From contig VHDF01000019.1 in assembly GCA_016871495.1 (NCBI GenBank), positions 1 through 64,000 on the forward strand: a stretch of DNA of 64,000 bases, given 5' to 3'. The notes under the pieces are model-generated. The model did not search any database, had not been told where the DNA came from, and saw nothing but the letters and a program-made list of their open reading frames with translations. Numbering within the stretch: the stretch's first letter is position 1; every line of letters starts with the position of its first letter. The DNA comes from Verrucomicrobiota bacterium. Its GTDB lineage: Bacteria; Verrucomicrobiota; Verrucomicrobiia; Limisphaerales; VHDF01. The translations under genes and the position numbers were made by a program. Positions 4,216 through 6,050 of the stretch are shown one piece after another.

Positions 4216-5391
4216 CTACGCGATCAACCTCTGCCACTGATTGTCCCTCGCCTGACGCGCCGCTTTCAGAGCGCCACGGGCGACAAACTCCTTGTAATTG
4301 GCACCCGCAAGTTTGACTCCAGGCTCAGCATAACCTTCCTCGGCCAGCCGACGTTGAATTTCCTTGTCGAGAGATCGAATCCTGCTTCCGCCTCCCGTCA
4401 GCACAATGTTTTGCAACAGTTCCGCCACGCTGTCGGACGAAGCACGGCCAATCAAAACCTGCATCGATTCCAGAATTCGCTCCAGGAGCACCCCGCAAGC
4501 AAACTCAATTTGTTCGGTCACATCCAGTTTCCGCTTTTTTCCTCCCATCATGACCGTGGCCAGAGCCGGCGCCTCCGGCTTGCCCGCGAAAGAATGCTTC
4601 TCCTTCAACTCGCGCACCGCCATCGCCGAAAGCGAAAGATCCGGATAGGTTCTCTTGAGCGCTTCATACAACAGCGAGTCCACTTTGTCCCCTGCAAACG
4701 GAAAGCTGATCTGATCCTCACTCGTCGGGAAATAGCCCTGCACAAGGCAAATATCCGTCGTCCCCGCGCCGATATCCACAAACAGCGAATTCCGTACTGG
4801 ATCCGCGTAGGTCGGATCCACCAATCGCCCTTCCTCCCGCCATCCCAGCGCCGCCAGGAAGGGTTCCGGCACCAGGATCACCCGATGGAAGAGCCCCTGC
4901 ATGGCCTGGCGCACCCGTTCCCGGGCTTCTTCCCCGGCATTGGCCGGAATCCCGATCACCGCCCGAATCTCCACATTCCCTTCCACCCGGATCAACCCTC
5001 GCAAATGCCGCGCGAAATCCCGGGAAGCCTCCACGTCATGAATAATGCCATCCACCATCGGCTGCACCAACCGCAGATGCAGGCGGTGTTTCAACGCATC
5101 CTCCCCAAACAACACCTTCGCGTTCGCCGGCAGCAAGTCGTCCAGTAAACCCTCCCTCGCGTAACCCACCATGGTCGGAACCACGTGGTTCAACACCGGC
5201 TCGGTCATGCCGGCTGGACATCCAAACAGACAGGACTTGTTGGTGCCCCAATCCAGTCCCACCCAGAACGTGCAGGTCCTCGCCTCTTCCGGCATTTCAA
5301 GAATGGATACGGAGGATCCGCGGCGGATTTTCAAGTCGTCTTCCACGCTGTGGTGGCGTCCATTTTTGGCAGGAGGGGTCAGTGTCATCAT
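4216..5391 (-). CDS. MamK-like bacterial actin
   Basis: A 391-residue actin-fold ATPase. Phosphate-1 motif GLDWGTNKSC lies at 45-54, a connect-1-like segment VIGIPAN at 145-151, phosphate-2 FVDIGAGTTDICL at 204-216, and the adenosine motif LTGGGSRIR at 331-339. The stretches VDIGAGTTDIC, EDQISFPFAG and QNIVLTGGGSRIR resemble magnetosome actin MamK more than MreB, FtsA or DnaK. An N-terminal extension of about 40 polar residues precedes the fold. Such actins form dynamic filaments that position cell structures. The unknown gene at 5422-5913 lies 30 bases upstream on the same strand. No other magnetosome gene is in the window, so the cargo is unknown. Confidence 0.8.
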   Translation of the reverse strand: MMTLTPPAKNGRHHSVEDDLKIRRGSSVSILEMPEEARTCTFWVGLDWGTNKSCLFGCPAGMTEPVLNHVVPTMVGYAREGLLDDLLPANAKVLFGEDALKHRLHLRLVQPMVDGIIHDVEASRDFARHLRGLIRVEGNVEIRAVIGIPANAGEEARERVRQAMQGLFHRVILVPEPFLAALGWREEGRLVDPTYADPVRNSLFVDIGAGTTDICLVQGYFPTSEDQISFPFAGDKVDSLLYEALKRTYPDLSLSAMAVRELKEKHSFAGKPEAPALATVMMGGKKRKLDVTEQIEFACGVLLERILESMQVLIGRASSDSVAELLQNIVLTGGGSRIRSLDKEIQRRLAEEGYAEPGVKLAGANYKEFVARGALKAARQARDNQWQRLIA

Positions 5392-5421
5392 AGGAATTGG
5401 GGGGTTGAGGTTGAAAGAAGG

Positions 5422-5913
5422 TTAAGCGGCGATAAGCCTGCGTTCGCCGCGCATCTCATCGCGTTCCGCGGAATTCAAGAAATCAATCATGCCTTCCACG
5501 TCGTCGAAGGGAATTCGCACAGGATCGTTCGGCTCGAAACTCGGTTCGGACTCGGCCGCCGCGATCGCAAAGGGAGTCAAGACCCCATTCGCCAGCGAAC
5601 CTCGAATTTCTGCCACCAGCCGGTTGGAAAGTTCGGGGAGAATGTGCCGGGAGAACTGGCGCACCACGAGCGATTGTACCATCCATGCGTCGTCCACCCG
5701 CCTTTGCTCCTCCTTGAACATTTGTTCCAGTTTCGACCGCTTGACGCCCGGTTCCTGCCCGCTGAACTTCGTCCAGGTGGCAATACTTTGCCGCAAGTCT
5801 TGCTCCACGATGTGACGCGATTCCTGATGCTTGCCTTCGCGGTGCAAGACACACGCCTGCCGAAAGAGACTGACGACCCGCGACCAAGATTGATTCTCCA
5901 AAGTGGCTTCCAT
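5422..5913 (-). CDS. Unknown protein, putative partner of the MamK-like actin
   Basis: A 163-residue soluble, charged and mostly helical protein (MEATLENQSW start) with no signal peptide, membrane segment or family motif I recognise. It ends 30 bases before the actin-like gene on the same strand, so the two very likely share a transcript. By analogy with ParM/ParR and other cytomotive actin pairs it may be a filament regulator or cargo adaptor; this is inference from position only. A GTG at 5958 would add 15 residues, and no ribosome binding site settles the choice. Confidence 0.7.
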   Translation of the reverse strand: MEATLENQSWSRVVSLFRQACVLHREGKHQESRHIVEQDLRQSIATWTKFSGQEPGVKRSKLEQMFKEEQRRVDDAWMVQSLVVRQFSRHILPELSNRLVAEIRGSLANGVLTPFAIAAAESEPSFEPNDPVRIPFDDVEGMIDFLNSAERDEMRGERRLIAA

Positions 5914-6029: not shown

Positions 6030-6050
6030 ATTTGCCGAGTCTCGGCAAAT
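6030..6050. promoter_or_regulatory. Perfect palindrome in a divergent promoter region
   Basis: The arms ATTTGCCGA and TCGGCAAAT are exact inverted repeats around a 3-base spacer. The palindrome lies between the minus-strand unknown/actin pair and the plus-strand oxidoreductase gene, about 90 bases before ATG 6139. No T run follows on either strand, so an operator is more likely than a terminator. The binding protein is unknown. Confidence 0.45.

Follow-up and report, generated by a model that had tools for sequence, protein, structure and literature searches.

The pair of genes described here lies on the minus strand of the window, by which we mean the whole 64,000-nucleotide stretch of DNA that was analysed. 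Its first gene (5422..5913) encodes a protein of 163 aa, called the partner in the following, and its second gene (4216..5391) an actin of 391 aa. An initial annotation had placed a 391-aa actin 30 bases behind a 163-aa gene, and both ORFs were recovered at these positions (actin 5391 to 4216, partner 5913 to 5422); the two actin motifs quoted there, VDIGAGTTDIC and QNIVLTGGGSRIR, were found as well. The partner stop codon and the actin ATG are exactly 30 bases apart (gap 5392..5421, minus strand) and in the same frame. No inverted repeats were found in this gap, and a gap so short and free of such repeats suggests one transcript for both genes. At other loci the genes are often separated by 10-60 bases or, in several genomes, overlap by four bases (ATGA), and the order is always partner first, actin second. 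For the actin and the partner family alike, dN is well below dS among close relatives, which identifies both ORFs as real genes.

Among the neighbouring genes, Pfam searches confirmed an FtsB/DivIC-like protein and a GFO/IDH/MocA oxidoreductase, in agreement with the FtsB-like and sugar oxidation genes of the initial annotation; the desaturase named there is assigned by eye only. No magnetosome gene was recognised around the actin, as had been noted. The upstream region between the partner gene and the divergent GFO/IDH/MocA gene contains a perfect palindrome at 6030..6050 (ATTTGCCGAG-T-CTCGGCAAAT, no strand assigned), which is real, but whose arms around the single central base measure 10 nt and not 9 nt as first reported. 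It occurs once in the genome with up to two mismatches allowed. The palindrome is a possible operator, though not of a large regulon, since even at two mismatches the site is single. A search for repeated sites or iterons in the upstream region of the pair revealed none.

Judged by profile scores, structure matches and phylogeny, the actin is a BeeR-type bacterial actin and as such a member of an already known family. BeeR was described by Bergeron et al. (PNAS 2025; PMC11929497) as a family of Verrucomicrobiota. The purified protein of Opitutus terrae polymerises alone and forms with ATP a stiff three-stranded tubular filament, its disordered N-terminal tail is a hallmark extension of 30-50 aa that is viewed as a bundling repellent, and the discoverers state that the function of BeeR is not known (PMC11929497). 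The window actin matched the NCBIfam BeeR model NF053558 over positions 2-349 of 349 with 515.6 bits, more than twice the score of the next model and 14 bits below the curated cut-off of 530 bits. Of the 34 genomes with a match in the window's order, only nine pass this cut-off, although the proteins below and above it fall into a single clade. Most BeeR proteins of the order miss it as well; the cut-off is an annotation threshold and was not treated as a biological criterion. The best PDB match was the BeeR filament (8r2n; E 2.7e-126), far ahead of MamK. In a tree of 71 actins the window actin fell inside the BeeR clade, with MamK and MreB outside (SH-aLRT 96 for the split of the MamK group and 100 for that of MreB).

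The predicted fold of the actin agrees with 8r2n with a TM score of 0.94 over 353 of 353 residues. Ahead of the conserved core, which starts at residue 39, it carries a BeeR-typical N-terminal extension of 38 aa (5278..5391, minus strand), within the hallmark range of the family. Residues making cross-strand contacts in BeeR are partly conserved: E149, E153, R242 and L284 are kept, similar residues stand in for I277 (M), L385 (I) and N246 (D), and R157, T307 and Q310 are changed; under the numbering applied to the window actin, two of the named contact positions mismatch the residue given in PMC11929497. By analogy with O. terrae BeeR, the window actin would polymerise into a filament in an ATP-dependent manner.

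Other actin identities were considered and rejected. The initial annotation had called the protein MamK-like. MamK is indeed the nearest long-known family, but the protein is not MamK itself, as it scored 235.3 bits against a MamK cut-off of 400 and 515.6 against the BeeR model, lies outside the MamK group and within the BeeR clade on the tree, and has neighbours that are not magnetosome genes. MreB scores were low (59.5 and 53.3 bits, with cut-offs of 293 and 365.75, respectively), and the phylogeny that had been proposed as a check against MreB places the actin outside that family. Together, model scores, the tree and the all-helical prediction for the partner led to the rejection of MamK, MreB and ParM identities. 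The corresponding check against FtsA was made by model score, which was only 23 bits. The rest of the genome encodes one MreB-like actin only. The initial interpretation is thus partly supported: an actin system outside magnetosomes was rightly suspected, but its actin part is not a new kind and has been published (PMC11929497); what is new is the partner gene.

For the partner no family was found in Pfam, NCBIfam or the PDB, in line with its first description as a protein of no known family, and the gene is not mentioned in the main text of PMC11929497 or in the open literature searched. With respect to these sources the partner family is previously unremarked. A single-sequence search with the window partner detected homologs in only seven of 58 relatives and would thus have suggested a rare gene; profiles recovered more and corrected this picture. 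Iterated profiles over the ORFs near BeeR revealed a partner directly upstream of BeeR at all 17 Opitutaceae-type loci and, in the window's own order, at the majority of loci. Locus L011 is that of O. terrae BeeR, its sequence agreeing with 8r2n, and a partner is present there too (L011:2706-3164, minus strand). Altogether, 66 of 80 BeeR loci from named genomes have the partner immediately upstream. The dedicated partner gene beside the actin that had been postulated for a verrucomicrobial cell was thereby borne out, and the question whether it is always adjacent can be answered with usually.

Among 384 genomes sampled across the phylum, 18 contained BeeR and all 18 a partner, 17 of them by genome search and the remaining one (G176) by a profile search of its locus. 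No intact partner was found in the BeeR-less genomes of this sample. One of them, G357, retains a partner pseudogene interrupted by four in-frame stops (L248:7544-8194), which has no BeeR adjoining and is 73% identical to the intact partner of a relative at locus L023. The partner is the most constant neighbour family at the 80 BeeR loci. It adjoins BeeR in Opitutales as well as in the window's order, two groups in which the remaining neighbours are different. At the level of gene content and gene order, these data show that partner and BeeR form an evolutionarily linked, long-conserved unit in Verrucomicrobiota.

Some loci deviate from the common pattern. In G027 a normal partner gene is overlapped by a BeeR-like actin that is very divergent (175 bits; L007:798-2000 and 2-802 for the two genes) and has a long branch in the tree. 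Two public MAG records titled Klebsiella pneumoniae (L123) and Akkermansia muciniphila (L129) contain BeeR-partner loci resembling the ones found in the window's order, and L129 is nearly identical to G617; judging by these loci, both titles look wrong.

Alignments and an AlphaFold2 model divide the partner into three parts. The N-terminal domain (residues 5-108; 5590..5901, minus strand) is predicted with pLDDT values of mostly 94-98 to consist of helices at residues 5-25, 29-51 and 55-108, and its consensus reads WxxVVxxFRxxCxLRRxG...LPxxIAxW...LxxMFxxEQxRVxDA. Next comes a linker that varies in length, has a high content of P and A and is modelled with low confidence, followed by a C-terminal helix. 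This end carries a short amphipathic motif (residues 133-146, RIPFDDVEGMIDFL; 5476..5517, minus strand), which we propose, from its pattern of conservation and loss, to bind BeeR. The motif has the form RxxFDDIPxxIDxLL in the window's order and IADFIDEML in Opitutaceae, with the general pattern I[AP]x[LMF][IL]Dx[ML][LI], and its aspartate (D144 in the window partner) is conserved to at least 90%. It is present in essentially all BeeR-linked partners. The one exception, L154, has a partner with an aberrant C-terminus overlapping BeeR (L154:3417-3917), an end that is probably an assembly frameshift. The partner evolves much faster than BeeR (62% versus 93% identity in one genome pair), still with dN below dS.

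A fold search of the PDB with the partner gave nothing below E 1. Faint matches to MIT, FliT, F-BAR and enzyme IIA folds were rejected as generic helical bundles, and Pfam matches to HSP20 and others as lying under the cut-offs and being confined to single members. We also modelled partner and BeeR as one fused chain, with the in-frame stop read as glycine. In this chain the motif reached a pLDDT of 83 between disordered linkers, which is no better than in the partner alone; since the motif scores as well without BeeR, the fused model is no evidence of docking. A fold search with the fused chain returned actins only.

Partners in genomes without BeeR are informative about the two ends of the protein. 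Ten genomes of genus g272 were found to have a partner but no BeeR, as were two genomes from family f37 and one from family f45; these absence calls rest on draft assemblies (G530, for instance, with partner but no BeeR found, is 80% complete). The C-terminal motif is lost in the f37 partners and in those g272 copies whose end lies on the contig: a motif-less end reads, for example, RPRVQFDEPTLDTEPHLQAA, compared with RPRVRFDDIPGMIDSILRDQ in G617, a genome of this genus that does have BeeR. A third BeeR-less lineage, G044, keeps the motif. The N-domain of the g272 and f37 partners is under purifying selection, with dN/dS of about 0.05-0.17. As the motif is lost and the N-domain still constrained where BeeR is absent, the two ends appear to have separable roles, which suggests a function of the motif for BeeR and of the N-domain for something else; the motif losses amount to two or three independent events, a number that leaves a formal sign test without power.

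Four BeeR-less g272 genomes encode a MamK-like actin of about 385 bits (MamK cut-off 400), which groups with MamK and not with BeeR. The loci of MamK-like actins in this genus are L088:6395-7495 (G629), L089:7911-8975 (G667), L202, L203 and L246:12395-13495. A Pfam scan of the genes next to the MamK-like actin of G629 recognised no magnetosome gene.

The converse case, BeeR without partner, is largely confined to one BeeR clade (family codes f16 and f44), which comprises 13 of the 14 partner-less loci. The fourteenth, L191, is a separate partner loss with ribosomal protein genes upstream of BeeR. Given these losses and the polymerisation of purified O. terrae BeeR alone, the partner is dispensable for BeeR as such. 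All 13 members of the clade (L048, L053, L054, L058-L060 and L062-L068) share the strict N-terminal tip MRTT[FY]V.P[LF]T. Outside this clade BeeR tails vary, except for tips that are specific to individual clades; one of these, MTTATLEKP, is frequent in Opitutaceae. Conservation of the tip within clades, and its strictness where the partner is missing, suggest that the tail is more than a spacer, and a tip conserved in cis, in a clade that lacks the partner in trans, fits a replaced recruiting function. The published view, in which the tail repels bundling (PMC11929497), is thereby extended. Some residues, such as K371 to V and H100 to Y (O. terrae numbering), separate BeeR proteins that have a partner from those that have none, but were set aside as indistinguishable from a clade signature.

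We propose that the two genes encode a cytoskeletal module of a BeeR actin and a dedicated soluble adaptor that works in a MamJ-like manner, a reading to which we assign a probability slightly better than even (roughly 55%). BeeR would polymerise with ATP into a stiff tubular filament, as its O. terrae ortholog does, and the C-terminal amphipathic motif of the partner would bind it. Across the variable linker the partner would present its helical N-domain, which may bind a second structure or self-assemble. In this way the partner could tether, crosslink or position the filament, as MamJ does for MamK, and in the partner-less clade the conserved BeeR tip may have assumed the recruiting role. 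A fuller version, in which the adaptor family docks via its C-terminal motif, holds BeeR tubules and itself carries a cargo or anchor unrelated to magnetosomes and DNA, as an intracellular organising system in two Verrucomicrobiota orders, with the adaptor replaced in one clade by a conserved actin tail, is offered more tentatively, at clearly less than even odds. The partner is a first genetic handle on the function of BeeR filaments: a gene beside a structurally solved actin, with a separable C-terminal motif, makes the question of what BeeR does testable.

The main rival to the adaptor reading is that the partner regulates assembly, its C-terminal helix acting on BeeR monomers or filament ends in nucleation, capping, bundling or turnover without any cargo. 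The end of the partner resembles actin-monomer binders, in which a flexible linker typically bears a short amphipathic motif, and a fast-evolving family encoded just ahead of BeeR would be in keeping with this role. MamJ and LimJ, too, influence MamK turnover (PMC10653835). A regulator would, however, need a BeeR-independent function as well, as the BeeR-less partners keep their N-domain under purifying selection, and we regard this explanation as a genuine but clearly minor possibility. It is unlikely that partner and BeeR are functionally unrelated and share an operon by descent only. Partners do persist in BeeR-less genomes, and one clade does keep BeeR without a partner; these cases are set against an adjacency that outlasts the change of the other neighbours between Opitutales and the window's order, a near-perfect co-occurrence in the 384-genome sample, the pseudogene state of the partner in G357, which has lost BeeR, and the loss of the motif in partners deprived of BeeR.

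The layout of the pair, an actin with a small co-transcribed gene and a palindrome upstream, also recalls DNA segregation modules of the ParMRC or AlfAB type, in which the partner would sit on a centromere-like site and BeeR push DNA. The prediction of an all-helical partner, without the strand of a ribbon-helix-helix fold, and the lack of repeated sites upstream make this very improbable; in addition, the palindrome is single in the genome, and in complete genomes the pair lies on a chromosome-sized contig. We give equally little credence to a MamK/MamJ system of a magnetosome-like organelle with further genes unrecognised. In its favour, MamK is the nearest long-known actin, and mamJ and the MamJ-like gene mg-1g50 are likewise encoded immediately upstream of mamK (PMC10653835). 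Yet BeeR and MamK form separate clades, and BeeR bacteria are described as non-magnetotactic (PMC11929497). The initial annotation had raised a full mam island elsewhere in the genome as counter-evidence; an actin search of the genome found no second MamK-like protein, and a magnetochrome search with one model, whose positive control was also silent, gave no match.

Among known systems, BeeR itself (PMC11929497; PDB 8R2N; NF053558) shares with the window actin full-length similarity, the clade, the N-terminal extension and the occurrence in Verrucomicrobiota, and differs in the 14 bits by which the window actin falls short of the cut-off and in cross-strand contacts that are kept only in part. 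MamK (NF040964; PDB 5JYG, 5LJV) is the closest other actin family, with about 30% identity in the structure alignment, and is set apart by score (235 bits against 400), clade and magnetosome gene setting. ParR/AlfB-type adaptors are likewise small proteins co-transcribed with an actin, whereas the partner has no predicted DNA-binding fold and is not accompanied by iterons. In its proposed working the partner resembles MamJ and the MamJ-like Mg-1g50, adaptors which tether magnetosomes to MamK and which combine a gene position immediately upstream of the actin with conserved ends, a variable middle and fast divergence (PMC10653835). The likeness is one of layout and behaviour. By comparison, the window partner is the shorter protein, its N-domain is predicted with confidence to be helical, and an acidic repeat is absent. 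Finally, the partner family occurs in two orders, whereas MamJ orthologs have been reported from magnetospirilla only (PMC10653835).
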